A stretch of 47,609 nucleotides of DNA, from the IMG/VR virus record IMGVR_UViG_3300032053_000130, positions 1-47,609 of that record. The stretch is one strand, 5' to 3'. Each line of letters starts with the position of its first letter. Positions within the stretch are counted from its first letter, which is position 1. The notes below the pieces were generated by a model. The model made no database searches. It saw only the letters and a program-made list of their open reading frames with translations, and was not told where the DNA came from. A program made the translations under genes and the position numbers. Origin of the DNA: a virus. Below are positions 4,496 through 24,229 of the stretch, piece by piece.

Positions 4496-7039
4496 TTAAA
4501 AGCTATCAATCAGTTGGAACTGTCTCTCTTGCTCACAAATTGCTCGACGCTTCTTGTAATGTCCAATCAAGTACCGTAAATTATCCTTAAAGTCTATCAC
4601 GATAGCCTCTGTTTTGCCATCTGACAATCTCAATGTCCGACCTATTCTCTGTATCACTCTTGTCGGTGATTTACCACCACCTGCTAATATCAGTGAATCA
4701 AGTGCTGGGATATTCAAACCCTCATCGGCTAAGGACGTCCCTAAAATCACGTCTAGCTGCTTATTTCTAACTTGGTCAATATACTTCTTTCTCAGCATTT
4801 TGTCAACATGACTGTATATGAACTCGCACGATATACCGTCAATCGCTCGTATCATTTTTAATAACAAATGACCATGATTTTTTGTAGTAACTGTTATCAA
4901 GATGGATTTGTTAAGACCATGAAGTCGCTTAACGCAGTCTACTATCAACTGATTTCTATATGCATTGTTGACAATATACAGTTTGTAAATCGTCTTGTAC
5001 TTTTTCCTACTAAACTTATATGCTGCATTTTTTGACCCCTGCAAATAATAAATCTTCGGTCTCACTAAATACTCGTGCTCAATCAAGTATGATGCAGAAA
5101 CTTGTGCCACAATGCTTCCAGCATAAGCTTGCAATACCATGTCACGACCAGTGCCGGTTTCAGGGGTAGCAGAGAGACCTCCTCTGAAATAACTGCTTTT
5201 ACAGACTTTCATTGTTTCTACGTAAGAATTTGCGCTCAAGTGGTGGCAATTACTAACTAGTATTCCATTTGCAAAATAATTGTGATTATCTTCTACTTCT
5301 AAATTGTATCTATACTGTGTATCAACATCGCTATGAGCCTCATAACAATATTTTACGTCTAACACTACTGCTTCATCATGATTATAGACAAACTTAAAAA
5401 TCTTATTTTTAGTATCATCCCAATGATCATCTTCAAAGTCAACATTTGTTAAATATAAACATTCGAAATTTATTGATTCGTATGCGCAAATAAGCTTTTC
5501 AATTTCTTCTTTAGTATGCCAATGACAGATGTCACCTACTTCAATTACTTTTCTTCGTTTTCTAACTTTAAAGTCTGGATTTTTAGACCATTTTCTACCA
5601 TTAGCCTTTTTGCCTACTGTTAACCAAAAGCGACCATCACCAGTATATGCCAATTCTGGTAATTGCAAATCAATCAATTTTTGTTCAAACCTTGTTGGTT
5701 TCCACACTTTATTCTTTGACTTTAATGGTGCATTAATCCAGTTTTGTCGTACTTTTGTTTTTTCTTCTTCTGACTTGTTATTAAAGTTCTTTTGCCAACT
5801 AATTTTCATTTTCTCTATTACTTCTGGCCTAAAACTTGGATTATTCTTTTTCATACGTTCAGATAATTTTTTACAATACGTTTTATTAGCACTTCTAGTA
5901 ACAAATCCCTTACCGTTAGTAAAAGGGTTAGTATTATTATGCATTGAATAGTGACCACCGATATGCATTGTTTCACCTACATATCCACAAATGTCACAAA
6001 CTTTAACATTCTTTGCATTACTATAAAATTTAAGTACATCTGTTTGTAGCAATTCGTCAACTCTAACATATCCACGGTTAACTGTCCAAAACTTATGTTT
6101 AGCTGTAGTTTTTAACTTAATGATCTTACTACCAATTTTAACTGTTACAATCCACCATTTATCAGTACATTTTGAACGTATCTTTCTCAATATCTTTTTC
6201 TTTTCAACAGTATTTTTTTCATGATTATATGACAATACATGAGTTATTTTGTCATTTTCATAAATCTCTTTTATTTTGACTTGCCGTTCATGATCAATCA
6301 TTACTCGAGTTTTTTCATGAAAGCACTCGTCAACCATAATGCATTGAACAGTTTGCAAAAATCTCTTAATGCTATCATTTCTCAAATAGCTTTTCTTGAC
6401 AATAGTGTCATTTTCCATCTGCTCTTTTTCAACTTCATCAAATGGCACATATTCTTTACCTAACACTGCATGAATTGTCTGAACCATACAAACATTGATT
6501 TTTTTGATATCACATTCACCACCACCAATTTTACCTATAGGGATCTGTAATAATTGAGTCAAGTCATCATAAGCTTGTTCAAATAAATCACCGGTATGCA
6601 CTACAAATATTGACGGCATATTCAATCTTGCAAGAATGGCACCCGCAATGACTGTTTTACCACCACCAGTAGCTACTTGAATTACAAAGCGCTGATGGTC
6701 TATAGCAGCTTCGACAATGTCAGATTGGTAAGGTCTGAGTTTTGCGTGCAACTTTAGAGGTTTGTTTGTAGCAGGCTTTGATCTATTGTCAATGACATCA
6801 TAATCAATGTTGTGAGTTTCAAAGATGTCAGCTGCTTTTGAAAATAGTCCTGTAGGAAACGACTGTTTTTGTCTATTGTATAGAACATGATCAATTGTAA
6901 CAAAGTTGAAGCCGTTGAATTCATCTGTCTTGTAAGTCATTGCAGCATATAGATCGTAGATTATGGCATTACTAATATTGCCGACTATTTTGCTGTTTAT
7001 GTTGTTGACTTCAATTTTGATCATATAGCAATAAGTCAT
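4496..7039 (-). CDS. UvsW-like superfamily 2 helicase, interrupted by an intein
   Basis: After removal of the intein (residues 239-597) the extein is 488 aa, a normal size for UvsW-type helicases. An N-terminal domain with LYNRQKQSFPTGLF around residue 53 resembles the UvsW dsDNA-binding domain. Helicase motifs follow: LRPYQSDIVEAA (Q/I region, about 101-112), ATGGGKT (Walker A, 123-129), VDE|CHH (DEAH box, split by the intein), GLSATPETG (motif III, 621-629), LGTSLADEGLNIP (motif V) and QRIGRTLR (motif VI, 797-804). T4 UvsW unwinds R-loops and branched intermediates and switches origin-dependent to recombination-dependent replication. Two starts are possible, 7039 and an in-frame ATG at 7024, and neither has a clear ribosome binding site. 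The start at 7024 would give an N-terminus (MIKIEV) more like UvsW. The helicase is active only after protein splicing. Confidence 0.9.
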   Translation of the reverse strand: MTYCYMIKIEVNNINSKIVGNISNAIIYDLYAAMTYKTDEFNGFNFVTIDHVLYNRQKQSFPTGLFSKAADIFETHNIDYDVIDNRSKPATNKPLKLHAKLRPYQSDIVEAAIDHQRFVIQVATGGGKTVIAGAILARLNMPSIFVVHTGDLFEQAYDDLTQLLQIPIGKIGGGECDIKKINVCMVQTIHAVLGKEYVPFDEVEKEQMENDTIVKKSYLRNDSIKRFLQTVQCIMVDECFHEKTRVMIDHERQVKIKEIYENDKITHVLSYNHEKNTVEKKKILRKIRSKCTDKWWIVTVKIGSKIIKLKTTAKHKFWTVNRGYVRVDELLQTDVLKFYSNAKNVKVCDICGYVGETMHIGGHYSMHNNTNPFTNGKGFVTRSANKTYCKKLSERMKKNNPSFRPEVIEKMKISWQKNFNNKSEEEKTKVRQNWINAPLKSKNKVWKPTRFEQKLIDLQLPELAYTGDGRFWLTVGKKANGRKWSKNPDFKVRKRRKVIEVGDICHWHTKEEIEKLICAYESINFECLYLTNVDFEDDHWDDTKNKIFKFVYNHDEAVVLDVKYCYEAHSDVDTQYRYNLEVEDNHNYFANGILVSNCHHLSANSYVETMKVCKSSYFRGGLSATPETGTGRDMVLQAYAGSIVAQVSASYLIEHEYLVRPKIYYLQGSKNAAYKFSRKKYKTIYKLYIVNNAYRNQLIVDCVKRLHGLNKSILITVTTKNHGHLLLKMIRAIDGISCEFIYSHVDKMLRKKYIDQVRNKQLDVILGTSLADEGLNIPALDSLILAGGGKSPTRVIQRIGRTLRLSDGKTEAIVIDFKDNLRYLIGHYKKRRAICEQERQFQLIDSF
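5249..6325 (-). mobile_element. Intein with Vsr-like (EDxHD-type) homing endonuclease domain
   Basis: The element codes for 359 residues inserted between Glu238 and Cys598 of the helicase, exactly in the DEAH box (DE|CHH). It starts with Cys in CFHEKTRVMID (block A) and has a block B-like TTAKHKFWTV. It ends with NHNYFANGILVSN followed by Cys+1 (blocks F/G). The penultimate residue is Ser instead of the usual His. The middle holds a C2H2 finger-like patch (CDICGY...HIGGHYSMH, 348-367) and a NUMOD3-like repeat region (KKNNPSF..., 397-436). A nuclease domain follows, with RFEQKL (E452), NPDF (D489), KVIEV (E500) and GDICHWH (502-508), matching Vsr-like EDxHD homing endonucleases. The frame is open throughout and looks intact, so both splicing and homing may be active. 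Confidence 0.9.
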
Positions 7040-7064: not shown

Positions 7065-7089
7065 AAAAAAGCCAGCATTTCGCTGGCTA
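7065..7089 (-). terminator. Rho-independent terminator of the structural operon
   Basis: On the minus strand a GC-rich hairpin (AGCCAGC, loop of five bases, GCTGGCT) is followed directly by six T residues. It lies 20 bases after the stop of the 180-aa gene and before the helicase gene. It separates the tail operon from the DNA metabolism block, so the helicase gene should have its own promoter or rely on read-through. Confidence 0.88.
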
Positions 7090-7108: not shown

Positions 7109-7651
7109 CTAATCTTGTTGTTGTTCAAATTTCACAACTGCTTCAAACCAGCTATCTTTCGGCCATGCATTCCAATTATCTCTTGTATCGACTACAACCG
7201 GCGTAAGGCCTGCTGCTTTTGTACGACCAACAATTCTTTCAGCAAACTTTTCGGGACTTCCACCATGCCGATAGAAATAACCTTGTTTGAAAACAAATCC
7301 ACCTTTTTTAGGACTATATCCAGGTGAACCATTACTTCCATTAAACGTATCTTCAAGTATTTTTCTAATTTGCGACCTTGTCAAACTCTTTGCAGGTATT
7401 GTTTCAACAGGCTTTACCGGTTCAGTTGGCTTTGTAGCCTCGGCCGGTTTAACTTCAGCTGGTTTTTGCTGCTCTTCAGATTGATCAACGACAGGTTGCA
7501 CTGTTGTTTGAGCTTGCGGTGGTTGAGCAGTCAATCTTCGTCGTGATCCAGGATGACGTTGCAAATACGCACGTTGTTCATCAACTGTCAAATCGTCCCA
7601 TTTACGAGCTTCTTTCAAAAACTCAGATTGAATTCTAGCTAAAAACTTCAT
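7109..7651 (-). CDS. Hypothetical protein with KFLA-IQ-EFL tag and HPGS module (180 aa)
   Basis: Residues 1-12 (MKFLARIQSEFL) closely match the first residues of the FtsK-like protein encoded at 10997-13453. Residues 17-40 contain W-DDLTVDEQRAYLQRHPGS, a module also found in the 155-aa protein at 10533-11000. A Pro/Gln/Val/Lys/Thr-rich linker (about 43-90) leads to a compact C-terminal domain with GGFVFKQGYFYRHGGSP and a WFEAVVKFE end. The ATG at 7651 overlaps the previous stop (ATGA) and has a strong AAGGAG site. It is the last gene before the operon terminator. Function is unknown. A short N-terminal tag, flexible linker and folded domain would fit a virion cargo protein or adaptor, but this is inference. 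Confidence 0.75.
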   Translation of the reverse strand: MKFLARIQSEFLKEARKWDDLTVDEQRAYLQRHPGSRRRLTAQPPQAQTTVQPVVDQSEEQQKPAEVKPAEATKPTEPVKPVETIPAKSLTRSQIRKILEDTFNGSNGSPGYSPKKGGFVFKQGYFYRHGGSPEKFAERIVGRTKAAGLTPVVVDTRDNWNAWPKDSWFEAVVKFEQQQD

Positions 7652-10533
7652 ACAATCTCCTTAATTAACGGTCTATTCTTTATGAAGTAAAAATCTACAC
7701 CAATATGAGTTATATCTGCTGATGTCAACTGATTCGCAGCATCATTGTTCGAATATGTCCACACATACAACACTAACTCATTCTTCATTGCAAACCCTGT
7801 TGAAGCAACAGCTATTCCAAACACTGCTACTTGCTTATGATTTGCAACTACTAACGGCATCATCATTATTGACTTCAATGACGTTGCCTCATTACCGCCA
7901 CGTTCAACTGCATTCAAGCCTGCATTGTATCTAGCAGTTATCACATCATCTATCTTCAAAACTGACTGTGAACTTGTAGCATACTCTAACAAACTTACAA
8001 CACTGTGACACACGTCAAGCGATGCAAATTTTCCAAGATTAGCAACTCCAGTTATAGAATCACCCTTTGTCAAATGCTCAACATCTAACGGTGTCGGCAA
8101 ATTCGATATCAACGGTCTAATATACGTCTTACTATCAATATTAACTGTAACATTTGCTGTTCCGTCAGTATGTGCATAACCTATCATAGCTTTCAATGTT
8201 GCATCAAGTTCAACAGCTTCAACCATACCCTGGTAAGGTAAGTGCTTATATGAAATCTTAACCTGAGCTCCATCATGAGGTTCAGCAATATAATCCATAT
8301 CAATCCACAATTGCTGACCATCAACAATTATTGCACTATCAAGAACTGTAATCCAATTGTCTACAGGAACAACGCTATTTGTAACGTACGCGTTCACTCT
8401 AGCAGTAGGTATACTCTTATACGTCATCTGGAAATCTGCCGGATTAGATGACGGCGGTGAATAAATTGCGCCACTACTATTCACTAACACAAACTGATCA
8501 ATGTCACCACTTGAACTCTGTCGATAAACAGGTGCCCAACCAGCAATAATAAGATCCAATGCTAACGGTACATACACTATTGACGATATCTTAGCAAACG
8601 AATATGGCGCATGAATTCCGCCCGACGGATGTCTAAACACTTGCCCTGAAATCATTGAAGGATTCTGCGCTGTAAATGGCTCAGACGCTATTTCTGTAGT
8701 ACCAGTAGATGTAGTATACACACCACGAACCATCCACACCTTATTTGTAGCAAATGGTAAATATATTCGTCTAGATGTGTTGCTTGTATTTGTAACGAAC
8801 ATCGTACGAGTACTACCATTAACTGATGTAGTTGATGACACTATCGGCGTTACACTTATTTGTTTATTTCGCATTGCTGTCTGATAATTTGCAGCATAAC
8901 TATTAACAGTTCCAGTATGATTGTAATTCAACTGCTTTGAATGTCTCATTGAATATAGTGACGTGTCAGACATGTTAGTGCCTGATCGAACTATACCACT
9001 ATGAGGATTGTAAGCAATTTGTGCTATAGGAAAAGTTGCTGCATTCACGTAATTCACAGATAGTACTTCGTCTGGTACAAACGTCAAACCGTAATTACTT
9101 GGATACTGTACATCGTAAACAATCCAAATCTCTTGATTAGTTAATGAAACATTAGTACCTAATGTAAATGTAGCAGTAGCTGTTCCAGTGTTTAACCATG
9201 ATCCAACAACATCTACTAGTCCTACAGTATTCATATATACATACGGTTTTGTACCTGGACCAGCATCATCAGTTCCAAGAATAATTGTTCCAGCAGGAGA
9301 ACCTGCAGGTGCTTTAACTACAATAGTATTACCATTAGCCCAATTGCCAAGACCGGTTGCTCGATAATAGTCTTGAGAAGAATCTGTATCGACAGTATTA
9401 AGTCTAACAACATTTGACACGACTGTTGTTTGCAAATCACTAATAGTAGTTCTAGTTTTGTCAGCTGCGCAAGCTATTGAATAACCTGTTATTGCTGCAT
9501 CGCTAAATGCGTCATACTTAATAGTAATTGGTCGTCGAACATTGTTTTGACCAGTCAATAGTTCTTGTACAGATGACTTCAAAATTTCTTCATAAGTAAT
9601 CTGTTTTCCAAACACAAGTTTGTGCCGCAAGTCAATTACATCTTGTTGCGCCACTGAATCATTGAATAATCCGTCAGGTCTATCAGATATTCCGCCAATT
9701 ACAACATCTGATGCTTGCTGACCATTCAAATCTTCATCAATGAAAGGTGATATTGACCGTCTAAATACTAGTGCTACAGGAATGGCATAAATGTAACCAT
9801 CAACACTCTTAAGTTGTGATCTTGATGCAATGTCTCCGTTACCTGCTCTCCACAGCCCGTAATCACCTGTAGATGCACCCATGTTTGAGAAATTAAATGG
9901 GTTTACAGGCAGTAACGCACCACCTTGAGCAAAGGTGATTGCATCAAATATATTTGAATTTTGAGCACTTGGAGCAGCTACATTTTCTTGAATACGAAGT
10001 CTATACTGAATCTGTACTCGCTTAGTAGTTTCAGGATAAACAGCTGCTATGATTGGATCAATAATGTCATCAGCTAATGTGCTAGTGACATTTTGAACAT
10101 TGCCTTCTTTGTAAATATGTGTAGCATCTGGTTTGTAATCTGTCGATCCGCCAGATATCATCGTCTTCCATACTTCAAGGAATATGAAATCGTATCGATG
10201 ATTACCGGCACCAAGTGAAGCTGCACTCAAGTTAATATCAGATGTACCAGAAGATAATACATTTACTTGCCAGCCATTTACGAATGCAAAGTCTTGGGGC
10301 ATTTGAAATTTGTTTGACCAAGTGGCATTGAATGCAAATGATGAAGTATTTAAGAAGCCGCTTTGGGCTTGATTTGAAATGTATTTCTGAAACTTGTCTG
10401 ATATGACGTCAAATAATAGATTGAGTTCTGAATCAAGGACAGGTTTACCATCTTGAAATATTAGAGTATCGTACCCGTGAAATTCAGGCTGTAGTGTTCT
10501 AGATACTCCGGTGCCGTAGTCAAGTGTTGACAT
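7648..10533 (-). CDS. Large virion structural protein (961 aa), tail/baseplate appendage
   Basis: The protein is rich in Ser, Thr, Asn, Val and Ala, with long beta-strand patterns and few charges, as expected for a phage fibre or baseplate-associated protein. The N-terminus has FQDGKPVLDSELNLLFD (about 26-42), a pattern (gkpvld.ELN) seen in phage proteins that attach to the baseplate. RYDFIFLEVWKT follows near residue 113. Later segments (for example GAQVKISYKHLPYQG near 768) resemble a beta-module repeated in the other baseplate proteins of this window. The start overlaps the upstream stop (TAATG) with an AGGAGC site. No enzyme motif is seen. It could be a peripheral baseplate plate, fibre or adsorption protein, and sequence alone does not decide. 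Confidence 0.7.
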   Translation of the reverse strand: MSTLDYGTGVSRTLQPEFHGYDTLIFQDGKPVLDSELNLLFDVISDKFQKYISNQAQSGFLNTSSFAFNATWSNKFQMPQDFAFVNGWQVNVLSSGTSDINLSAASLGAGNHRYDFIFLEVWKTMISGGSTDYKPDATHIYKEGNVQNVTSTLADDIIDPIIAAVYPETTKRVQIQYRLRIQENVAAPSAQNSNIFDAITFAQGGALLPVNPFNFSNMGASTGDYGLWRAGNGDIASRSQLKSVDGYIYAIPVALVFRRSISPFIDEDLNGQQASDVVIGGISDRPDGLFNDSVAQQDVIDLRHKLVFGKQITYEEILKSSVQELLTGQNNVRRPITIKYDAFSDAAITGYSIACAADKTRTTISDLQTTVVSNVVRLNTVDTDSSQDYYRATGLGNWANGNTIVVKAPAGSPAGTIILGTDDAGPGTKPYVYMNTVGLVDVVGSWLNTGTATATFTLGTNVSLTNQEIWIVYDVQYPSNYGLTFVPDEVLSVNYVNAATFPIAQIAYNPHSGIVRSGTNMSDTSLYSMRHSKQLNYNHTGTVNSYAANYQTAMRNKQISVTPIVSSTTSVNGSTRTMFVTNTSNTSRRIYLPFATNKVWMVRGVYTTSTGTTEIASEPFTAQNPSMISGQVFRHPSGGIHAPYSFAKISSIVYVPLALDLIIAGWAPVYRQSSSGDIDQFVLVNSSGAIYSPPSSNPADFQMTYKSIPTARVNAYVTNSVVPVDNWITVLDSAIIVDGQQLWIDMDYIAEPHDGAQVKISYKHLPYQGMVEAVELDATLKAMIGYAHTDGTANVTVNIDSKTYIRPLISNLPTPLDVEHLTKGDSITGVANLGKFASLDVCHSVVSLLEYATSSQSVLKIDDVITARYNAGLNAVERGGNEATSLKSIMMMPLVVANHKQVAVFGIAVASTGFAMKNELVLYVWTYSNNDAANQLTSADITHIGVDFYFIKNRPLIKEIV

Positions 10534-11000
10534 TATTTGCTCCTGCTGTCATCTAAATATGATTTGACTCTTTCTTTTTCAGCCTCTAATTCATTATGTT
10601 CATCTTGGTCAAATGCAATCCAACCTTTGTCATGTGTTAGCAATCTGTATTGACCGTTATTGAATTGCGTCGTTCCGATAGGAATATCTCTTGCTCGAAT
10701 TCTATAGTGTGATCCTGGATGATCTTTCAAATGTCTTCGTTGTTCATCAATTGATAGGCTGTTCCACCATTCACTGGTAGCTCTATTAAGTGCCATTTTA
10801 GCAAATTCTTTACTGATAGTATTTGAGTGTTTATGTTTTTGAATTGCTCTTTCTTGACGTAATGCCTTTTCTTTAGATGGATGTCGACCAAGTAATTTAG
10901 AGCCGTCACTAGTATATAGACAGACCTTTTGTTCTTTGCCTGGTCGACTGTCTTTGTCTTTTTTCTTACAAGGTCTGATTACTGATTCTATATCTTTCAT
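10533..11000 (-). CDS. Small basic phage protein with HPGS module (155 aa)
   Basis: The N-terminal half holds KVCLYTSDGSKLLGRHPSKEKALRQERAIQ-type sequence (about 26-55), a motif of small phage proteins in which a 'G-kLLG-hps-ekA--QErAI' helix-strand unit recurs. The second half has EWWNSLSIDEQRRHLKDHPGS (about 77-97), matching the module in the 180-aa protein at 7109-7651. EFAKMAL just before it recalls the EFL part of the tag there. The C-terminus (YRLLTHDKGWIAFDQDEH) looks like a small beta domain followed by a charged helix. It starts with an ATGA overlap on the stop of the FtsK-like gene and stops with a TAATG overlap into the 961-aa gene. The function is unknown; association with the neighbouring motor protein is inferred from coupling and shared modules. 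Confidence 0.75.
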   Translation of the reverse strand: MKDIESVIRPCKKKDKDSRPGKEQKVCLYTSDGSKLLGRHPSKEKALRQERAIQKHKHSNTISKEFAKMALNRATSEWWNSLSIDEQRRHLKDHPGSHYRIRARDIPIGTTQFNNGQYRLLTHDKGWIAFDQDEHNELEAEKERVKSYLDDSRSK

Positions 11001-13453
11001 TTTTTACCAAGTAGTGTTTTGATTCTATCAAGCATTGATTTCTTTTTAGGTTCCATCTTCTTTTTTGCAGCGTCTTCACGAATTTTTTTAAGGAATGGAT
11101 CATTAGATTTTACAGGTTCTTTTACTGGTTCAGGCTTTGTAATTTCATCTATTTCTCTTCGAACAGCGTCCTTATCAGATATATCAGGTTCTGATTTCGT
11201 TTCAGGACCTTTGCTTGTATCAGCTAATAGTTGGTCAATGTCAGTCTCTTCAGGCTGTTCAGGCTGCTCAGCTACATCAATATCAGACGGTGTGCGTTCT
11301 TTTTGTCGTTTGATGTCAGTTTGATCACTACGAGTTTTTTCAAGTTGTTTTTGGCGTTCTTCACGTCGTTTTTGTAATTCTTCTCTCTGAGCTCGTATTT
11401 TATCTATATTAGCATCAAGTTCTTTTGATCGTCCTTCGAGTCTTTCGCGTTGTGCATTAAGTTTTTCACGAACACCAGCCATTTGCTTCTGAAATTCAAT
11501 ATATACTGGATCATCTGTCGCTTTGAATCTCTGTACTGTCGGTAACTCAGGCTTTTTTTCTTTCTCAATGAATTTTTGTTCACCTCTAGTTACGCTAGTA
11601 ATTTTTGCATCGTCATTTTTATCAATGAATCCAGTCTGTAGTCTTGTAGGTGCACCACCAATAGATGGGTCTTCAAAATATCCGTCACCATACATCAATA
11701 GATCTGTAGCATCTGATACACCGATATTTTCAGCATCACTCTTGTTTTGCAATCTAAAAGTCATCTTAGCACCAATATTTGCCTGAATCTTTCCAGGTAT
11801 ATTTTGCTTTGCAGGTGACTGCGTTGCAATAACCATGTGAGCACCGACAGATCTAGCAACTGTTAGCATGTGATCAACTAAATTGAATAATCTTGCAGCA
11901 TTCGGATTAACTTCCTTATTAAACAAATCTTTAGCTTCGTCTACTATCGTCACAATTCGATGCATTTTTTTACGCTGCTCAGCCGGTATTAGATCAAACG
12001 CTTTCTTTTCACTATCATTCATTTGTTCAGGCTGTTTAGCAATAAACGAATTCCAATCTTCAATATTCCTAAAGCTCATACCTGTCAAACCACTAGTGTT
12101 CTTAAAGAAATTGTTTCTTCGATTGACTTCATCACTTAGTGCTTGCAATGACTCTTCTGCTTCTTTTGCATTAGCAGCTATAGGTCTATCTAAATATTCA
12201 CTATCCTTATATTGCGCAAACTCTGCGCCTTGTTTAGCAGCATCAATCAAAATCATCTTGGCTTCATCAGGTGACTTACCCATCTGAATTGAATTTATGA
12301 TGCTCTGATTAAACACAGACTTACCTGATTTAGTGGCACCAGAAACTATCAAGTGAGGAGTTTTACTAAAATCGTAAGTTATTGTATTGTTGTTCTCGTC
12401 TTTACCAAACGCAATTGGCAATTTAGTAGGATCTTTTGAAGCTTTCACAAACGCATCATTTGTAATCAACTCTTTAAACGATACAGGATCTCTATCTCTT
12501 AAATCTGTGCCTTTAGGTACATGAACATCAATAGTATCTGTATCTCTATTTTCAGTAATAGTAACATTCTCTTTCTTACCAATAAAATGACTCATGACGG
12601 TCTTACTTTCAGACGACAATAGCTTATGCATTGCCTTAGCTTTGTCTTTATCTAAAAGCTGTTTCAGACTCAATTTGTACGTTACTACATTAGGACTATT
12701 GACAACATCTGAAACTTGCGCATCACCTACATCCATTGCCTTTAATGCACGATCTAAAGACTCTTGATATTGCTGAATATTTTTCAATTTCTGTGGATCT
12801 GGAGGTGCAGGATCGCTCAAATTACTTGCATCTCTATATATTTGACTTTCATTTTTCTTGACAGTTTCAATTGTGGTCTTATATTGATTATCAGTTTTGT
12901 CACCAATAGCTTTCAATCTCTGTTCATTCTCAACTTGTAACTTCTGCTGTAATTCATCAGCTTTTATTTCTTCTTTTTGTTCTTTTGGAACGTTAGCATT
13001 TGTAACAACTTTAGATTTTTCAGGCAATTTCTTTTTCTTACGCAATTCAAGATTCTTACGATTTTCTAAATATTTTCGATATTTAGCAGCCTCTGACAAT
13101 GATTTTTTCTTAGGTTTAAGCTGCTTTTTCTTATCTTCAAACTCTTTCTTTAATTGCGTCAGATGCTTCTTAGGCAACTTAGCTTTTTGCTTTTTTGTAT
13201 CAACTTTCTTAGTCTTAGAACCCTTCCATTGCTTATATAACTGTTTGTACAAGCCCTTTTGACGTTCATCGCCACTCTTTAATGACTTAATCTTTATTGT
13301 ACGTGTCTTATCACGTTTAGAACTCGGATTCGACACACGCTTTTCACCCATCTCTTTATCAAAAGACTTCAAAGACTGCTTCTTTGCAGTCTTGAACATG
13401 CTGCTTGCTTGCAACTGCAAAAATTCATTCTGTATCAAAGCAAGAAATTTCAT
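10997..13453 (-). CDS. FtsK/SpoIIIE-type DNA translocase motor (818 aa)
   Basis: Residues 1-12 form the MKFLALIQNEFL tag. Residues 20-210 are very Lys/Arg/Glu-rich and probably disordered or coiled. The motor core has HLIVSGATKSGKSV with Walker A at 372-379, MILIDAAKQG, and RIVTIVDEAKDLF with Walker B D505-E506. RSVGAHMVIATQSPAKQ follows, with a PGKIQANIGAKMTFRLQ segment and LLMYGDGYF...PTRLQTGFI. These follow, in order, the FtsK motifs (HLLVaGtTGSGKS, vDE-aDL, GiHLilATQRPs-ItG-iKaNip-RiaF, LLgmGDmLy...RvqGaF). There is no membrane region and no visible gamma winged helix. Residues 630-800 are coiled coil. FtsK motors pump double-stranded DNA as hexamers. An FtsK motor between baseplate genes is not part of a standard tail. 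Packaging into the virion, DNA movement at ejection, or action on host chromosome ends are possible roles (inference). Confidence 0.88.
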   Translation of the reverse strand: MKFLALIQNEFLQLQASSMFKTAKKQSLKSFDKEMGEKRVSNPSSKRDKTRTIKIKSLKSGDERQKGLYKQLYKQWKGSKTKKVDTKKQKAKLPKKHLTQLKKEFEDKKKQLKPKKKSLSEAAKYRKYLENRKNLELRKKKKLPEKSKVVTNANVPKEQKEEIKADELQQKLQVENEQRLKAIGDKTDNQYKTTIETVKKNESQIYRDASNLSDPAPPDPQKLKNIQQYQESLDRALKAMDVGDAQVSDVVNSPNVVTYKLSLKQLLDKDKAKAMHKLLSSESKTVMSHFIGKKENVTITENRDTDTIDVHVPKGTDLRDRDPVSFKELITNDAFVKASKDPTKLPIAFGKDENNNTITYDFSKTPHLIVSGATKSGKSVFNQSIINSIQMGKSPDEAKMILIDAAKQGAEFAQYKDSEYLDRPIAANAKEAEESLQALSDEVNRRNNFFKNTSGLTGMSFRNIEDWNSFIAKQPEQMNDSEKKAFDLIPAEQRKKMHRIVTIVDEAKDLFNKEVNPNAARLFNLVDHMLTVARSVGAHMVIATQSPAKQNIPGKIQANIGAKMTFRLQNKSDAENIGVSDATDLLMYGDGYFEDPSIGGAPTRLQTGFIDKNDDAKITSVTRGEQKFIEKEKKPELPTVQRFKATDDPVYIEFQKQMAGVREKLNAQRERLEGRSKELDANIDKIRAQREELQKRREERQKQLEKTRSDQTDIKRQKERTPSDIDVAEQPEQPEETDIDQLLADTSKGPETKSEPDISDKDAVRREIDEITKPEPVKEPVKSNDPFLKKIREDAAKKKMEPKKKSMLDRIKTLLGKK

Positions 13454-13511: not shown

Positions 13512-14036
13512 TTAAAATGTCAATCTCCAACAGATTGTCAGCGTAGATGTACTTGGTTTGTTCCAGACAGGGAACGTATGATAGTTCACCATATCTCCGC
13601 CGCCCGGCGTTGTTGATCCAGTCCCGCCAAATAATGACATTTCAACAAGCGCACCAACAGCTTCTGTATCATTATACACTGTCTCAAAATCAACTATATT
13701 GGTACGAGTCAGTGACTCAACACCAAGCGTATCTACATAATACACTCGATTGAATATCTTTCTAAACAACTCATTAACAAGCGCTATTTGCACTGCAGTT
13801 GCAACAGGCGGATTCTGCAAATCCCAACCGGGATCGCCAGTACCAACTGCTAATGTCTTCAACCCAGGCACATAAGTTCCCAGACCGGCATTATCTGACA
13901 TCAACTGTGCCATCAAATAAGATGCTTGATCTACAATTACATTCTGTTCTACACGTGTCTCAATAGTACCATCTTTATGCTTCATTGTCATGAAGATGTC
14001 ACCACGCTTAATCCATCGATAATTAGTCTCTTGCAT
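13512..14036 (-). CDS. Tail/baseplate-associated virion protein (174 aa)
   Basis: I place the start at the ATG at 14036, because GGAGG lies at ideal distance in front of it. A longer frame from 14081 lacks such a site and would overlap the 41-aa gene. The sequence VIVDQASYLMAQLM, LAVGTG, LVNELFRK, ETVYNDTEAVGALVEMSLFGG and a final TLTICWRLTF follow a pattern shared by many small phage tail proteins: N-iv-G, laVGtG, t-L-nEi-Rk, eanG-l-EmgLFGG, K-----L-i-W-i-f. These proteins lie among baseplate and fibre genes and are probably virion parts. Specific function unknown. Residues 18-26 (MKHKDGTIE) are repeated in the 41-aa gene just upstream. Confidence 0.7.
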   Translation of the reverse strand: MQETNYRWIKRGDIFMTMKHKDGTIETRVEQNVIVDQASYLMAQLMSDNAGLGTYVPGLKTLAVGTGDPGWDLQNPPVATAVQIALVNELFRKIFNRVYYVDTLGVESLTRTNIVDFETVYNDTEAVGALVEMSLFGGTGSTTPGGGDMVNYHTFPVWNKPSTSTLTICWRLTF

Positions 14037-14052
14037 ATTTCCTCCAAATTTG

Positions 14053-14178
14053 TTAGAATTTTCTCTTCTCAATGGTTCCATCTTTATGCTTCATTATACC
14101 AATAGCTGCATCAGACTTAACTCGAGGCACTTGCTCTTTCATTGCCGGTGCTGCCTTTTTAGCCTGCTTAATCTGCAT
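14053..14178 (-). CDS. 41-aa ORF sharing MKHKDGTIE with the next gene
   Basis: The frame runs from the ATG at 14178 to TAA at 14053-14055. The start overlaps the stop of the 2157-aa gene (TAATG), and GGAGG lies about 7 bases before it, one of the best ribosome binding sites in the window. The peptide is basic and Ala/Lys-rich at the N-terminus and ends with GIMKHKDGTIEKRKF. MKHKDGTIE also occurs near the start of the next gene's product, and the DNA (ATGAAGCATAAAGATGG) is the same over at least 17 bases in both. It may be a real mini-protein or the relic of a partial tandem duplication. Function unknown. Confidence 0.55.
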   Translation of the reverse strand: MQIKQAKKAAPAMKEQVPRVKSDAAIGIMKHKDGTIEKRKF

Positions 14179-17100
14179 TAAAATCCTCCAAAGAATCGTT
14201 CAATCCAGAAGAACAACATATCTGTAGACTCATTAGTAATAGAATCTAAATCATTTGTTGTAAACGGATGAGCATTTGTTTCGTGACAAAAACCATATTC
14301 ATTATCTACAGTTGTAACACTCTCAAGATACGGTATTGCAAATCTCATCATCACTTGCTCAATAGGCAACTCAAATTGCTCTCTAGCCAATATACCAAAA
14401 TTAACTTTCTCTTTTATGTCTAACTCAACTCGCTCGTGATTAAAATCACTAGCATTAAAAAATAATGTCTCTTCAGGTTTCTTAACTATTTCGTTAAGTC
14501 CACCCCAATGCACATCTGAGAACATTCTTGTCTCGCATATATGTGCATGTAATCCTTCAGGAATATCATATGCAATTATTGCGTCACTAGGAACATTAAC
14601 CTGATTCAGCAGCGCTTTCTTAGTTAAATCAAAAGCACCAGCAGTAACTGTATAAGTATTCGTATATAATCTAAGTTCTCTGTATATGACGTATTTATTA
14701 AATTTGTAGATAATTTTGACAGTCTCTGTCACTAATGGGTTCCTACTTAAACATATCTTACCAGTAAACCCGTTAACTGATATCACAGATATCGGTGGGC
14801 CAGCAGGCGTAACTACAAGCTGGATGTCTGTTGGATCAGTAGTTATCTTTGTCTCAGCTATGTTCAATATCGGTTTATAATATGCATAACAACAATTGTT
14901 TGTACCATCAAACTGAGCTGTCACGTTCTCTGTTATTATCTCTGCTTTCTTGTATTTAGCTGCGCAATCTGTGCGAACATCTTCAGTGCCACGATAAGCA
15001 AAATCCCACCTAACAATCTCATCTTGTATGTCCTTAGTCCTAATAATCTCAGAGAATACATACCTTAACAAGAAATAAGTATGTGCCGGCTTAACCAATT
15101 TCAATACTGCAGTTACATTTGCATTAAACTCGTCCCAATTTCTAATAGGTATCGTCCCAATATTAACATCAAACGAAAACATGAATTGCCATGCTATATT
15201 ATTCAAATACTCTCGAATAGAAACAGATTGCACACCAAGAAATACTGACAAACCCTCAATCAAGCTCTCCTTGGTTGATCCCTTGAAAAACATCTGCATC
15301 AACACTAACAACACTTCTCGATATCTATCATGCGAAAAATCTGCCCTTGGCTCAAACTTCAACAAATATCCCAAATTCTGATACAACAATTCTGATCGTG
15401 TCTGCTGATAATAATTGTCACGAGAATAATCTTCTGTCACTTGCATTGATCTGGCAATTTCAAGAGCCAATGACTTGAAATAACCATAAAACACTGTTGA
15501 CTCTGAATCCTTATTATACGTACTCTCTAAATTACCCAAAATCCTATTCACAATATCAATATGATACTGATACCATCTATCCCTATACTCTCTTGGCGGC
15601 GTAGCTATATCTTTACAAGTGAAAAAGTAATTCTCAGTCGTCATTACATTGTTACTATAATCTCTAGCATCAACTGACACATTAACCATGTACTTATCTT
15701 CAAACGTCTCTGACGGTGTAATTGCAAGTAGATAACCGCGACTTCTCGGTATAAAGTACACATTCTTGTTATCTTCAAATCTAGCCACAAACATTGTAAA
15801 CGTCGGATTCACTTGCACATGATACAAATTAATGAACTCTAAACTTGAAATCTGATCATAATCCTTATCAATAACAACCGCAGTAAATCCCGGTATCGCA
15901 TCTAAAAATACACTAACTTTCTTAACCGTTGAATACTGATCATGCGTCAAATTTGCTGTGGCAACTACTATACCACCAACTGTCACATACAAATTGTTAT
16001 CAAGCACATCTAAAAACACATCCGGCAATAAACCAGAATAAGTAACAGCTATCACATCTGTAGTAAGCACAGTGTAAGTAGTATTTGCAATCTTAACACT
16101 AACAGTTCGCAAATCGACACCAGACACGTCATCATCCAAGAAAATCATCACATTTGTATCTCTAGACACATCCTCAGCTTTATGCTTCGGCCAAAACCCT
16201 CTAATATACGGCGCAGTCGTATCTGTCGGAAATATACCAACTACAACAGGGATTAACGCGTTACCAGCATTATCATTAGCATAAATAACAACATTATCTA
16301 GATCTTGAAAATTTGGAATACTTGCAATTGGTCCAACTTGAACTTGCAAAGTATTATATGGTAACACACCCGTATATGAAAAGAATGCTGAATTCTTACT
16401 TGTAGAATACTCAATATCGTCAACAACTATTCTAACAGTATCAACATCAATACCAGACAATGCATCAGCAAAATTCACAGTCAAATGTGTCTGTACTGTA
16501 AATACAAGATTTGCAGGATCTATAGACGTTACAGCCGGTTTCTCTAAATCTAATCGCAATGAATTTGAAGCAGTCTTCACAGCTTCAACGTTACCAGCAT
16601 TGTCAACTGTAAAATACTTGATGTTGTAAATACCACTTGCAGCAAACGGTATTTTTTCTGTGACAGTATATGATGAACTTGTAGTAGGATCAGGCGGTAT
16701 TATTGGATCTACTGCAAATTCATAATATGTTCGATAAACACTGGAATGTACAGCGTCAATTGTCAATTGCAGTAATGCGTCATTTGTCCAATTTGTCGTT
16801 ATACTATCTGTAGTGATTGGTATTGTAGTATCGAGCTTAAAAATATGCTGCTTTACAGATTCAACATTACCAACGTTATCGACACTATAAAAGTGTAATA
16901 CGTGAATACCTTCAGACGGTATCAACAATGATGACAAATATGTCGAATAAGCAATTACATTATCCCATTTGTAATATGTACGATAGACTCCTGAATCCGG
17001 ATCAACTGCATCTAAATCTATACTTGGCGATGTCACATACCAATTATTATTACCATCTGGTGGCAATGCGTCAACTGTAGTTTCAGGAGCAGTCTTGTCA

Positions 17101-20100
17101 ATCTGTACTGGCAACGATTCTTCAATAATTTCGTAATTTCCAGCATTGTCAACACCGCGATACTTTACAATGTATTGACCAGTACTAGAAAGCGTCAATA
17201 CGACCGAAGATGCAGGACCTAATATTGTCGGATCTGTTCCATCAGTGCTATATAATATCCTGTTAGTACCTGACGATGACTGATGATATGGATCAGGTAA
17301 CGGTACTTCATAATCATTAGAAGTAATCGTAACTGTGACATTATTTACCGTCCAACCACTAATAGCATCATCAGTTGAAATCGGCGGATTAGTATCCAAC
17401 TTTAATGTATTGCGACTAGACAATTGTGGTATAGAAGTGTTTGTAGTCTGTCGACCACGCTTGTCAACTACTATAGTCGTTATGTCTTTCGGGCCTTGTA
17501 TGTCATACGACGGTATAGGCGGAACTATATCGTCAGGATAGATAAACGGATCAGTCTTGTCAGAAAAGTCAACTTCAATATCAGGATCATCAATGTCACC
17601 AATAATTATTTGCTTAGCGTTAGATCCTAATGCTGTATCAAACAATGTACAATACGTATAGTCTACTTCAACATTGTCACTAATTAATGGCACTGCATTG
17701 GCTGTAATCGTTATTTGATTTCCTGACACAGAAACGACAGCATATGTTTCTAACTGTGTTTTATTTTGCACTCTAGTAGCAGCAGTTAGTGTCTCATATG
17801 TCGTATTGATCTGTAATGTTTGATATACGCAAGTGAATGGTCCCGGACCAGACACACTTATTAATGTAGAATGCTCATTAAACACAAACACATTAGGACT
17901 TGAAACTTCAGCTTTTATTGATGGTCGTAATGGAATATCAGATGGATCGAGTCTATACCACCCATTATCACCATTTGGTGAGAAATCTGTATAATCAGTA
18001 TTCTTTACAATACTTACATTAACTACAGGAGCTCGATTCAAAATTGCAACAGTCGCACCAAGATCTTTTACATCTTCAGTGTTACCGGCAGCATCAACGG
18101 CAAACCACTTAATAGTACTAACGCCATTTTCAAGAAGGTCAATTGTTGTACCTTCAGGTGATAATGTTGTAGGCTGACCATTTATTGCATAATAGACATG
18201 ACTGATGCCGCAATAGATATAACTGACTTTGATAACGTCAGTATCTACAAACGCTTCGTTAGTATAGATCTTGTTGTCAGAAATGTAACTTACAGTTAAT
18301 GTAGTAGCTGTTGTTTCGTTGTATACGTTAGAAACACTAAACAAGAACTTATGAGCGATCGTAAGTTCGTTTTTAGTGTCATCTTTAGTCGATATTATTT
18401 CATCTGTTATTGTATATTGCCTATCATCTACGGGCTTCAAGAATATACGTAATGGATCTGATACTACTATTTCTGGTTTTGCTCGATTTAATGACTGTAT
18501 ACCGATGCCTGCATTAGTTATATCAATCCAATGATTTGCGAGAGCATTACGATAAGTATCAGCTACTCGAATTTGAGTCGCCGATATTCTAACTGCGTAG
18601 TAATATCTACCAGTCAATAACGGATCAGGCAATTGCACCGTTGTTTGAAACTGTAGTACATTACCCGTATTAAGATTATGTGACACTGATGTCGTTAAAA
18701 AATTAGTCAGAGCGTCAGCTGTAAACACTTTGACAGTTGAATCTACGTTCATTACATTCAAATACGTCATCATTGACGACCAATCAGTATATGTCGTCAA
18801 ATTTTGTCGCAATGAATCTGTCAACATCGGATAAAAATCATTATTTTCAATTACATGGGCCCACGACAAGATTATATTGAGATCATTGTATGCATTAATT
18901 GCAGTAGCATCAGTCGCAGTACTTGGCTCAATAAAATCATAATCAAACAGACGTTCTTGTGGTGTTTCTACGTTTCCAGAAACATCAACAGAGAAATATA
19001 TCAGTCGAATTACTTTTGAAGTATAAGGTAATTGTATCGGTCCATCTTCAGGATGATACTCTAAAGTAGGATCTTCATCGAACTGATAGATTATCTTACT
19101 TACACCTGAAGTAATATCTACAGCTGAAAACGAAATATCAGGTGTAGTAGTATAATATCCACTACCATGATCTGGAACTACTGTCAAAGTAGTAACTGGA
19201 GCAGTGGAATCTAACTGATAAACTTTCTCTACAGTTGCTGTCTCAGTGTCAGTACTTGCAGTAGCAGCTACTTCCCAAATACCATCACCAGGAAGCACAA
19301 AATGACCAGTATAATTTACATACAAATACGTTTCTGTAAATGTATGAGGATACATGTCAACACTAAGACCAAATACAGTCTCTGTTGCATCATATGTTCC
19401 TGGACTTACAAACTTAATTTCTGATGTGGATAATCCTGAACCACTAGTTGGCGATGTAACTGTAACATAACCAGTACCCGCTAAGCCATCAGAACCAGTC
19501 TCTGTAGCTATCGGTACATCACCACCAATTGTATTATTGATCTGATCAATAATGTCTTGTATTGACGTCTTTGTGGAATCTACACCGCGAATGTTAATGA
19601 CAATTGGTGTATTAGACTGATCAATCTCAAGAGCAATAAATGAACCACCGGACAAATCAATCAGTCCAGTGATTTGAACAGTACTTGTATACGTTGCTGT
19701 TGTGGGTTTGTTTCTAGGCGCAATCTTGTACTGTAATTGAGTTACTAAGTCAGGTTTAGTAGTTAGTAATCCGATTTGTGGTGATGATTTATACCAACCG
19801 TTTTCACCATTAATCGGAAAACTTTCAGTCATCAATACTTGTAAAGCACCAGTCGAAATTTCAACTCTAAACGGTATTGACTCTTTAACAGTCTCAACGT
19901 TTCCAGCATTATCCACAGAGAAGAACTTTACAACATATAAACCTGACGTCTTGATCTCAAATGATGTTGCAGGCGTCAAATCTCTAGTTGGAGTAGTGCC
20001 ATTTGTAGTATAGTATGTTGACTGTTGACCAGAAGCAGAATCAGTTATAGTGAAGTTAATAGTTACAGGTACATGAACGACGTCTAACGGAACTGTAATA

Positions 20101-20651
20101 GCAGTCGTCGGTGCGTCGTTATCGTACTTGAAGACTATAGTTTGAATATCTTCTTTGTTACTAGCAGTATCTGTAGCATAGACCTGCAAATAGTGAATAC
20201 CTTCACCAGGTATTGTAAGAGCTACAGAGTATTCTTGGAATGTAGTGCCGTCCCAAGAGTAATAGATTTTGTCAACGCCAGAAACAATATCATTAGCAGT
20301 TATTGTTATGACCGGTAGTGATTGATACCAACCATTTTCACCATCGGGTTGGATATTGACATGAATTGTAGATACCGGAGCAATACCGTCAATCTTGACA
20401 GATTCAGTCTGTACAGCATTTGCTTCACTAGTAGATATACTAATTGAGTAGTATTTTACAGTTGTCGTGCCTTCAGTCTCAATAATGAACGGTGTAGTAT
20501 ATAGTCGTCTAGACGGATTTATGAGAATTAATGGATCTGATCCATCTAATGTATAGTACGAATGACTGGGTTCATTAGTCTCTAGTATGACAGCAAAAAA
20601 GCTAGTACACCAACTAGTGGATATATTACTATTTGTTACAGGTATTGCCAA
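14178..20651 (-). CDS. Giant baseplate wedge protein: Ig/OmpL47-like repeats fused to P2 I-like domain (2157 aa)
   Basis: Residues 1-1400 hold about ten copies of an extracellular-type beta domain. A recurring unit is DG-NGWY---P-I---A-D--SGV--iYY-WD ... EGiH-L-fYsVDnaGNvE-vk...lD--aP-T, which resembles OmpL47/Ig-like domains, with chitobiase-C-type variants (TNGTTPTRDLTPATSF). Two more Ig-like domains follow (SGIDVDTVRIVVDDI; SGVDLRTVSVKIANT). Residues about 1687-1865 form a helical domain from DRWYQYHIDIVNRILGN to LKLVKPAHTYFLLRYVF, matching the tail protein I/gp48 wedge family, and a beta-rich tail ends the protein. The start is TTG at 20651 with GAGGT spaced well; the next Met is some 270 residues in. 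Being directly after the J-like gene matches the P2 order J-I. The role is baseplate wedge, with the Ig array projecting outward or bracing the wedge (inference). Confidence 0.82.
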   Translation of the reverse strand: MAIPVTNSNISTSWCTSFFAVILETNEPSHSYYTLDGSDPLILINPSRRLYTTPFIIETEGTTTVKYYSISISTSEANAVQTESVKIDGIAPVSTIHVNIQPDGENGWYQSLPVITITANDIVSGVDKIYYSWDGTTFQEYSVALTIPGEGIHYLQVYATDTASNKEDIQTIVFKYDNDAPTTAITVPLDVVHVPVTINFTITDSASGQQSTYYTTNGTTPTRDLTPATSFEIKTSGLYVVKFFSVDNAGNVETVKESIPFRVEISTGALQVLMTESFPINGENGWYKSSPQIGLLTTKPDLVTQLQYKIAPRNKPTTATYTSTVQITGLIDLSGGSFIALEIDQSNTPIVINIRGVDSTKTSIQDIIDQINNTIGGDVPIATETGSDGLAGTGYVTVTSPTSGSGLSTSEIKFVSPGTYDATETVFGLSVDMYPHTFTETYLYVNYTGHFVLPGDGIWEVAATASTDTETATVEKVYQLDSTAPVTTLTVVPDHGSGYYTTTPDISFSAVDITSGVSKIIYQFDEDPTLEYHPEDGPIQLPYTSKVIRLIYFSVDVSGNVETPQERLFDYDFIEPSTATDATAINAYNDLNIILSWAHVIENNDFYPMLTDSLRQNLTTYTDWSSMMTYLNVMNVDSTVKVFTADALTNFLTTSVSHNLNTGNVLQFQTTVQLPDPLLTGRYYYAVRISATQIRVADTYRNALANHWIDITNAGIGIQSLNRAKPEIVVSDPLRIFLKPVDDRQYTITDEIISTKDDTKNELTIAHKFLFSVSNVYNETTATTLTVSYISDNKIYTNEAFVDTDVIKVSYIYCGISHVYYAINGQPTTLSPEGTTIDLLENGVSTIKWFAVDAAGNTEDVKDLGATVAILNRAPVVNVSIVKNTDYTDFSPNGDNGWYRLDPSDIPLRPSIKAEVSSPNVFVFNEHSTLISVSGPGPFTCVYQTLQINTTYETLTAATRVQNKTQLETYAVVSVSGNQITITANAVPLISDNVEVDYTYCTLFDTALGSNAKQIIIGDIDDPDIEVDFSDKTDPFIYPDDIVPPIPSYDIQGPKDITTIVVDKRGRQTTNTSIPQLSSRNTLKLDTNPPISTDDAISGWTVNNVTVTITSNDYEVPLPDPYHQSSSGTNRILYSTDGTDPTILGPASSVVLTLSSTGQYIVKYRGVDNAGNYEIIEESLPVQIDKTAPETTVDALPPDGNNNWYVTSPSIDLDAVDPDSGVYRTYYKWDNVIAYSTYLSSLLIPSEGIHVLHFYSVDNVGNVESVKQHIFKLDTTIPITTDSITTNWTNDALLQLTIDAVHSSVYRTYYEFAVDPIIPPDPTTSSSYTVTEKIPFAASGIYNIKYFTVDNAGNVEAVKTASNSLRLDLEKPAVTSIDPANLVFTVQTHLTVNFADALSGIDVDTVRIVVDDIEYSTSKNSAFFSYTGVLPYNTLQVQVGPIASIPNFQDLDNVVIYANDNAGNALIPVVVGIFPTDTTAPYIRGFWPKHKAEDVSRDTNVMIFLDDDVSGVDLRTVSVKIANTTYTVLTTDVIAVTYSGLLPDVFLDVLDNNLYVTVGGIVVATANLTHDQYSTVKKVSVFLDAIPGFTAVVIDKDYDQISSLEFINLYHVQVNPTFTMFVARFEDNKNVYFIPRSRGYLLAITPSETFEDKYMVNVSVDARDYSNNVMTTENYFFTCKDIATPPREYRDRWYQYHIDIVNRILGNLESTYNKDSESTVFYGYFKSLALEIARSMQVTEDYSRDNYYQQTRSELLYQNLGYLLKFEPRADFSHDRYREVLLVLMQMFFKGSTKESLIEGLSVFLGVQSVSIREYLNNIAWQFMFSFDVNIGTIPIRNWDEFNANVTAVLKLVKPAHTYFLLRYVFSEIIRTKDIQDEIVRWDFAYRGTEDVRTDCAAKYKKAEIITENVTAQFDGTNNCCYAYYKPILNIAETKITTDPTDIQLVVTPAGPPISVISVNGFTGKICLSRNPLVTETVKIIYKFNKYVIYRELRLYTNTYTVTAGAFDLTKKALLNQVNVPSDAIIAYDIPEGLHAHICETRMFSDVHWGGLNEIVKKPEETLFFNASDFNHERVELDIKEKVNFGILAREQFELPIEQVMMRFAIPYLESVTTVDNEYGFCHETNAHPFTTNDLDSITNESTDMLFFWIERFFGGF

Positions 20652-23600: not shown

Positions 23601-24216
23601 CTAATAATGTAATGAACGATGACGATCTCGATAGAAAGTCAACATATGTATAGAGAAATCCAAATTCTGACGCATGAGGATCAATGTGAATGTCTCGAGT
23701 CATTGTCCCGGGCTTAACGTCAATTTTAGGATAACGATCTAATACCTTTGTGATCATTGATATCGTTACGTCACTAGCAGTTCGCACTGGAAACTCGACC
23801 AACTTTGTTGACAAAATCAACGGCGTATCATAAATTTCAATTGAATACAGACTTTCTTCTTCTGAATTGTTAACAGCAGTTATCACGTAATACTGAGTTT
23901 TAGTATCTAACAACTCAATATGAGTATAAGCAAACATTAGTACTTGCGTGACTGTTTCTGTAGTAGTAGTTATTCTGTTGCCACCAATATTCTGTACAGT
24001 TGTAACAGTGTTAGTAACAACATCTTTTATTTCACTATAAGTTGTCATTAGTTCGTCATTCAATTTCACATAACTACTAACACCACCACCTGAAGTAGTA
24101 GAATTATAGATATTGTAACCTTTGACATCAGGTTCAGGATTAGCAATCCATCGAACTATAATGGAATTACTTGAAGCCTCAGTTGTCAATCCGGTAGGTT
24201 GCGACGGTCTTGCCAT
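20665..24216 (-). CDS. Baseplate wedge protein, J/gp6-like, with N-terminal FN3 domain (1183 aa)
   Basis: Residues 1-135 form a fibronectin type III domain (PSQPTGLTTEASSNSIIVRW ... KGYNIYNSTTSGG ... TKTQYYVITAVNN). The J-like part starts with ISMITKVLDRYPKIDVKPG, TRDIHIDPHASEF (about 150-190). It goes on to ESNRSLASRAMLAFTGLDVGTRDGYL and YVDDVLVVDAG (about 372-415), the classic s--sRa----t-v-GT--gY---a------V--v-vv-aG of phage baseplate J/gp6/gp47 proteins. Between and after these are inserted beta modules (TGEIVFD---FLGDSVTADYEY). The end (VNSLVKIIQDKVDVRRHITADVLVKSANEINVDIEFTV... MGDRINQSDIIAIADNNNGVDYV) also fits J-family C-termini. The ATG has an AAGGAA site. J/gp6 forms the ring that joins wedges around the hub. 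At 1183 aa it is much larger than usual family members. Confidence 0.88.
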   Translation of the reverse strand: MARPSQPTGLTTEASSNSIIVRWIANPEPDVKGYNIYNSTTSGGGVSSYVKLNDELMTTYSEIKDVVTNTVTTVQNIGGNRITTTTETVTQVLMFAYTHIELLDTKTQYYVITAVNNSEEESLYSIEIYDTPLILSTKLVEFPVRTASDVTISMITKVLDRYPKIDVKPGTMTRDIHIDPHASEFGFLYTYVDFLSRSSSFITLLEIDDPNNTGTSIAVSQSTYKQQLKAAWQFTSDSETQAVIDFAFDKLANNFMVFRNAALASVGTVVFYTQVKPLATITIPQGTIVSTTSTSAKPAINFQTLTQAQMLIGSINQYFNEATQRYEINVSVQAVTTGEITNVGSNTINNSTFTQLQVTNVRPTEGGTDIESNRSLASRAMLAFTGLDVGTRDGYLRTAIETQYVDDVLVVDAGHVLMQRDYDSVRKQHAFGKVDIYFKGSVTVSETESFGFLYKGNYREDVDIVTTTADSASSATNMRVDITNADVSAAYPAYLVQEIINVTKSDSFDLTGNFTLYKNAIKIPKTDYTLDLSTGEIVFDMQIFLGDSVTADYEYKVPVVNEIVVASAVGGEIDAYLDSNLLGKNVAILTDTIYLYRVSGCSIDPSTNVVTVPVGHVYHTGDTARIAVAVGGTLPSPLVTGVDYYAIRLTNTTLKLATTLSNAQNGIAIDIVTPASGSLTIQPSTKTPLVRDVDYRVYYKTVGVNQRGKISFSFLSFPPGLVSGDIISADYSYVEPVVGEVVIASAVGNETTAQLVNGNVVESFIIESNGTSIDVNDTNAINFLIGIALTDIIRVTYKYKKADPAIFSNQPVESINSVTTSTGQILQEGTQYLFNKVDNILLTGNSVDAQRSVQLLFDATTGLPVGDLFDYSENVSLVGQEYKSLGKKGIDRYTIVVIDLTGTIVYDINNDYVLQMPTTQFGYISIARSLLSTITDGQTVIVSYKYGESITVSYNVNSLVKIIQDKVDVRRHITADVLVKSANEINVDIEFTVKLRLNAESPVVIDTLTSELYTLFDQKNMGDRINQSDIIAIADNNNGVDYVIMPLTKMAVSDGTHIANEIIQSNTVWTVYQTGITTSYRTASNVLRYSTAGSASDVSKFWRISANDVALQLVNSRDDVVNGLSRGFIDSDGSLYVSTADGSNPDNYVITAAYNVSGETGSKDIVVTDLDYLNLQSLVIHTI

Positions 24217-24229
24217 ATTGTTCCTTCCC

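Follow-up and report, generated by a model that had tools for sequence, protein, structure and literature searches.

Why should a tailed phage encode a DNA-translocating motor among the genes for its tail? The question is raised by a viral sequence of 47,609 nucleotides, IMG/VR record IMGVR_UViG_3300032053_000130 (positions 1 to 47,609, all of which was analyzed and is here called the window). A sequence-only reading, made without database searches, had noticed an FtsK/SpoIIIE-type motor gene at positions 10997 to 13453, inside the tail operon, and had proposed that its product might be a virion-carried translocase working at ejection. Our analysis shows that the gene does encode an FtsK-type motor and that the protein starts with a short peptide tag that also begins unrelated proteins. 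We estimate at about one half the probability that this motor is made late as capsid cargo, is injected with the genome, and works on DNA during entry or shortly afterwards.

The encoded protein of 818 amino acids (aa) is a soluble FtsK-type motor built of alpha and beta domains, as follows from Pfam, profile, and fold matches together with the lack of a membrane segment and of a gamma match. Residues 338 to 548 correspond to Pfam FtsK_SpoIIIE (E = 3.4e-29; 102 bits, with a cut-off of 24), and among the PHROGs the motor falls into phrog_1358 (E = 2e-42) and phrog_3551 (E = 4e-34), both described as “FtsK/SpoIIIE-like.” A profile built from five motor homologs retrieved the solved FtsK structure 2iuu (E = 3e-48). 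The full motif set that had been read from the letters alone is present (GATKSGKS at residues 372 to 379, D505 and E506, ATQSP at residues 543 to 547, and LLMYGD at residues 585 to 590), and its key residues are invariant in the five homologs. An AlphaFold model of the motor has a core with pLDDT values mostly between 70 and 90, while its ends are poor and its C-terminal third is of low confidence. Residues 215 to 624 of this model align with 6t8b_B, a subunit of the DNA-bound FtsK hexamer, over 369 residues with a Z score of 35.4 and a root mean square deviation of 3.0, compared with Z scores of 17.0 for VirB4 and 15.9 for TrwB. Neither a terminase nor a DnaB family was matched in Pfam or PHROGs, and the motor thus groups with FtsK, not with the terminase, VirB4, or DnaB proteins. 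It may translocate double-stranded DNA (dsDNA) as a hexamer.

The absence of a membrane domain and of a visible gamma domain, likewise part of the sequence-only reading, held in our searches: the best 19-residue Kyte-Doolittle mean is 1.15, which is too low for a membrane helix, and beyond FtsK_SpoIIIE no Pfam family matched at E ≤ 1. Because a hydrophobic N-terminal segment is missing, the protein is not an FtsK of the cellular type, although it is still a member of the motor family. With the solved FtsK proteins of Pseudomonas aeruginosa and Escherichia coli (6t8b, 2iuu, and 2ius) it shares the alpha and beta motor domains and Walker A and B, at about 25% identity over 369 aligned residues; it differs from them in its tagged N terminus, coiled linkers, and basic C terminus as well as in lacking a membrane domain and any match to a gamma domain. 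A C-terminal helix was considered as a membrane anchor and set aside as a weak lead, since its amphipathicity varies and other tagged proteins lack it. No KOPS-like octamer was seen; TTGACA is frequent, yet it is outside the words that exceed Markov expectation. In the whole contig of a 416-kb relative (G004), the octamers GGATATTC (148 versus 66 expected) and GGTTATTC (101 versus 43 expected) are over-represented.

The motor gene lies at the 3' end of a tail operon, and this position is conserved across five lineages. Relatives include G001 (113 kb, near-identical to the window), G002 (126 kb, with a motor core 85% identical to that of the window), G003 (330 kb), G004 (416 kb), and G006 (128 kb); G007 gave the same motor match as G004. 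All motor relatives have the gene order 2157-aa tail protein, 189-aa protein, motor, and 961-aa tail-fiber-like protein, with extra tagged genes sometimes interposed within this block, so that the same gene is indeed found beside tail genes in related phages. The ATGA coupling noted earlier is real and joins the motor stop to a downstream 155-aa gene (positions 10997 to 11000). The description of the motor as lying between baseplate genes requires some refinement: its upstream side holds the 189-aa gene and a baseplate/tail block, and its downstream side consists of the 155-aa gene, the 961-aa gene, a second tagged gene, and a terminator (7088 to 7070), beyond which helicase, DnaC-like, and DnaB-like genes are located. 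A plus-strand reading of 10997 to 13453 was discarded because its translation is riddled with stops; the open reading frame (ORF) is on the minus strand. A k-mer search for late promoters revealed no enriched 7-mer.

Tail proteins of the window have homologs in Bacillus phage G, Tunturiibacter phage Tunturi_5, and the huge phage LR745208, and judged from its sequence the source belongs to the jumbo phages and is a relative of phage G and Tunturi_5. A megablast search of cultured phages for close relatives gave no match. An FtsK gene was not detected in Tunturi_5 and LR745208, and in phage G only a weak motor match, to gp155 (annotated as VirB-like), was obtained.

The tag occupies the N terminus of the motor in all five lineages and has the consensus MKHLAxIQxEF[LV]KxA. 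When 2.9 million viral contigs were searched with a degenerate DNA pattern for the tag, eight contigs matched, most of them repeatedly. A profile census of eight records counted 93 tagged genes, with a maximum of 31 in the 416-kb phage G004; the cut-off was a score of 9.5, and no reversed-sequence control scored above 5.3. Since some of the censused sequences had served as seeds of the profile, all N termini were also subjected to unsupervised clustering, which yielded 9, 18, 29, and 14 tagged genes in G002, G003, G004, and G006, respectively, and none in Tunturi_5. Codon choice at the tag positions matches genome usage, and synonymous positions vary likewise, thereby indicating that selection acts on the tag peptide. 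In roughly half of the cases the tag precedes a second module (consensus RKWxDLSxExQKxYLKRHPKSKRRLTA; in a shorter rendering, RKWDDLSxEEQKxYLKRHPKSKRR), and tag plus second module are modeled as two helices. Comparison of the tag module with Pfam and PDB sequences gave no credible family. The tag pattern was absent from bacterial and archaeal genomes, its sole match in plasmids was a 29-base chance match, and the matches of a relaxed pattern in IMG/VR beyond the clade were singletons without the full tag.

Two observations concern similar sequences elsewhere. In LR745208.1, at least nine ORFs without Pfam families start with another recurrent N-terminal tag, MTTLRSKLIRLAHENPALRPHLLPLLKEA, and jumbo phages may commonly have tags of this kind. 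In Erwinia phage Yoloswag and Yersinia phage fHe-Yen9-02, a sequence resembling the second module (W..LS..EQ..YL..HP.S) forms the C-terminal end of a glycosyltransferase encoded a few genes away from the head maturation protease; since it ends this enzyme and no tag precedes it, it was not accepted as a companion of the tag.

Comparison of the window with G006 points to a modular motor gene. The DNA flanking the motor on both sides is about 80% identical, and the ends of the motor protein are similar as well (83% identity in the tag, 67% in the adjoining adapter, and 44 to 50% in the C-terminal tail), whereas the core (residues 176 to 640) shows merely 30 to 33% protein identity. The simplest reading of this pattern is that an exchange in G006 affected the motor core and left tag, adapter, and tail in place. 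The second tagged gene of the window (7109 to 7651), which has its own ribosome-binding site, occupies precisely the interval that separates the 961-aa gene from the terminator; it is cleanly lacking in G001, whose sequence otherwise matches the window at 99% identity as far as this site. Given this presence or absence immediately before the terminator, the last part of the tail operon resembles a site at which cargo genes dock.

A family scan of 82 tagged proteins shows what else carries the tag. Besides FtsK motors, the set includes an M17 aminopeptidase, a rhodanese, several HExxH proteins, topoisomerase IB (in G003 and G004), and an ADP-ribosyltransferase (G006, 18578 to 19378; E = 8.5e-20); Alt-like PHROGs are matched too, and there are weak matches to nucleoside deoxyribosyltransferases. 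The tagged genes come in clusters, some of them distant from the tail block. Using Tunturi_5 homologs to find the head genes of the relatives, we saw that a tagged gene comes immediately after a head-tail connector homolog in G003, G004, and G005 and lies one gene further on in G002, and the terL gene of G004 is adjoined by a gene with the second module. No terminase, portal, major capsid protein, or protease homolog starts with the tag. A head maturation protease homolog that is not of the S77 type was found in G003 (48212 to 49945; 577 aa) and G004 (22896 to 24581; 561 aa); both have an extra C-terminal region and roughly double the length of the Tunturi_5 protein (287 aa). A candidate scaffold gene occupies 53582 to 54268 in G003.

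One N-terminal peptide on unrelated proteins, takeover enzymes included, and encoded beside head and tail genes is the pattern of capsid-targeted cargo. In phage T4, the first 10 residues of IPIII (MKTYQEFIAE) are sufficient for prohead entry, residues 4 and 7 being important for targeting and residues 8 and 10 for processing, and the ADP-ribosyltransferase Alt reaches the host by ejection, as do many internal proteins (PMC9026906). The tag and the N termini of T4 IPII and IPIII (capsid-targeting sequence MKTYQEFIAEA) have the common form MK...EF[LI]xxA; furthermore, both IPI to IPIII with Alt and the proteins described here are unrelated proteins that share a short N-terminal peptide, with an ADP-ribosyltransferase in each set. 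The present tag differs in being longer, in its frequent second module, and in its presence on up to 31 genes per genome. By analogy, the tag is most likely a delivery signal that would recruit proteins into the assembling head, and we consider it rather probable that its address is the virion. In phiKZ-type phages and SPN3US, N-terminal propeptides have been proposed to target head-packaged proteins (PMC5694885). The ejection and inner-body proteins described in the relevant parts of that source, which are packaged in the head and delivered with the genome, are comparable to the proposed cargo; their propeptides are mostly longer than 100 residues and cleaved, unlike the short tag, and no FtsK motor is named in those parts. 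In the open-licence literature, we found no report of an FtsK motor in a tailed-phage virion.

Several findings weigh against the capsid-cargo reading. The tag and second module are absent from the searched parts of the genomes of Tunturi_5, phage G (about 470 kb searched), and LR745208 (about 435 kb searched), and only a minority of the tagged proteins can be assigned a known function. The resemblance to the T4 sequence covers few residues and was spotted post hoc, and a T4-type cleavage site ([ILVM]xE before A or S) occurs in only 25 of 91 tags. The search for an S77 (gp21-type) prohead protease gave no PF03420 match but was silent on controls too. With the likeness so short and the cleavage site not general, the tag is better said to work like the T4 system than to be a member of it. 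T4-type cleavage of the tag by a prohead protease was also considered; it is unsupported, as most tags lack the site and [IL]xE motifs show no enrichment over untagged proteins.

The phage FtsK motor family as such is already known, whereas the tagged, operon-fixed form is new as far as our searches show. About 200 phage-collection records, mostly of Bacillus and Mycobacterium phages, contain motor relatives with 20 to 33% identity. Bacillus phage Troll gp226 and Mycobacterium phage Optimus gp193 (phrog_1358/phrog_3551) have a homologous core (about 26 to 33% identity), but Troll gp226 is untagged and lies among non-structural genes, unlike the tagged motor fixed in the tail operon of the window. 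A scan with a defense-system library gave only generic FtsK/HerA-type matches, such as SspH.

How strongly the tag and the gene position bear on function depends on the alternatives. It is possible, if doubtful, that the motor is produced late, remains inside the producing cell, and works there on phage DNA, by resolving concatemers, sorting replicated genomes, or feeding the terminase, with the tag as an intracellular address for an assembly or replication site. Bacterial FtsK is generally known to act on replicated DNA, and the gene lies where the tail block meets the DnaC-DnaB replication block. However, rhodanese, aminopeptidase, and ADP-ribosyltransferase, which have no obvious task in DNA packaging, carry the same tag, and a terminase is present in G003 and G004. 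The Troll gene's surroundings and the PHROGs category of the family (moron) would agree with an ordinary moron, serving host takeover or anti-defense, that came to lie near tail genes by chance and whose function has nothing to do with the tag; the constant operon position in five lineages and the retention of the tag despite core exchange make this improbable.

Two further proposals have very little probability in our view. Location inside the tail operon would suit a factor for the assembly of tail or baseplate, or else a minor component of the tail, but tagged genes also occur remote from the tail block and beside head genes, and Tunturi_5 and LR745208 have tail genes with no motor detected. 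Because the tag is also found far from tail genes and resembles a cargo signal, the motor is unlikely to be a tail part as such. The clustering of tagged genes and their behavior as presence/absence cassettes could also reflect shared DNA, the tag being a by-product of a translation-start element or of a recombination hot spot at gene starts. This is hard to reconcile with synonymous positions that vary as they do genome-wide, so that the peptide is what is kept, and with the modeling of tag and second module as two helices.

If the motor is capsid cargo, the following course of events can be envisaged. The 3' end of the tail operon would be expressed late and supply a soluble FtsK-type dsDNA translocase, and the tag, a predicted helix often accompanied by a second helical module, would draw this and other proteins into the head in the style of T4 capsid targeting. 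The tagged cargo would be packaged alongside the genome and enter the next host by ejection; there the motor might assemble as a hexamer, travel along DNA early in infection, and either pull in or clear the long incoming genome or act upon host DNA. We infer each of these steps, from late expression and head targeting through packaging and injection to the hexamer and the post-entry role. The proposal of a virion-carried translocase working at ejection is strengthened as regards carriage by the tag, the kinds of tagged proteins, and the neighboring head genes; a role at ejection is hypothetical. That the motor aids genome entry itself seems unlikely, and we are equally reserved about the fuller scenario in which a hexameric FtsK-type translocase, packaged and injected among dozens of tagged proteins, helps to internalize or clear a genome of 300 to 400 kb or more. 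As a conjecture, a tagged translocase together with the tagged topoisomerase IB of G003 and G004 would suit such pulling in or clearing. To our knowledge, internalization of phage genomes has so far been linked to RNA polymerases and ejection proteins and to no translocase.

Should the capsid-cargo reading be true, a portable peptide address loads an extensive and variable repertoire of enzymes, a DNA motor among them, into phage particles. The set of injected proteins would then be predictable from sequence alone, a short cargo tag would be available for loading proteins into a large phage head, and how jumbo phages complete the pulling in and protection of very long genomes would become directly testable. 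Even with an address other than the head, a tag carried by as many as 31 proteins in one genome would represent a sorting system undescribed in the Pfam, PDB sequence, and literature searches. The features of the locus are compiled in Table 1.

Table 1. Features of the motor gene and its operon in the window (residue numbers refer to the motor unless stated otherwise)
Feature	Coordinates	Strand	Basis or remark
FtsK/SpoIIIE-type motor, 818 aa, ATG at 13453	10997..13453	minus	Pfam, PHROGs, and fold match
N-terminal tag, residues 1-15, MKFLALIQNEFLQLQ	13409..13453	minus	Profile score of 34.6 bits
Adapter segment, residues 21-90, kept in G006	13184..13393	minus	67% identity versus 30-33% in the core
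Motor core (alpha-like and beta RecA-like domains), residues 215-624	11582..12811	minus	Range aligned to FtsK 6t8b
Walker A, GATKSGKS, residues 372-379	12317..12340	minus	G372, T374, S376, G377, and K378 invariant in five homologs
Walker B acidic pair, D505 E506	11936..11941	minus	Invariant in five homologs
Basic conserved C terminus, KKSMLDRIKTLLGKK	11000..11044	minus	L808, D809, R810, G816, and K817 invariant in five homologs
2157-aa tail protein heading the conserved block	14178..20651	minus	Same position in five lineages
189-aa gene of the phage G gp190 family, preceding the motor gene	13512..14081	minus	PHROGs and homology
155-aa gene downstream of the motor, with internal second-module copy WWNSLSIDEQRRHLKDHPGS	10533..11000	minus	ORF; module match
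961-aa tail-fiber-like protein	7648..10533	minus	Tunturi_5 homolog annotated as tail fiber protein; phage G gp211
Second tagged gene, 180 aa, tag MKFLARIQSEFLKEARKWDDLTVDEQRAYLQRHPGS plus second module	7109..7651	minus	Profile census; absent from G001
Intrinsic terminator-like site closing the operon	7070..7088	minus	8-pair stem and T tract; kept in G001

A minor observation concerns the helicase gene beyond the terminator (4496 to 7039, minus strand): in the window it holds an intein (Pfam Intein_splicing, E = 7e-16), which is missing from its G001 homolog (483 aa).
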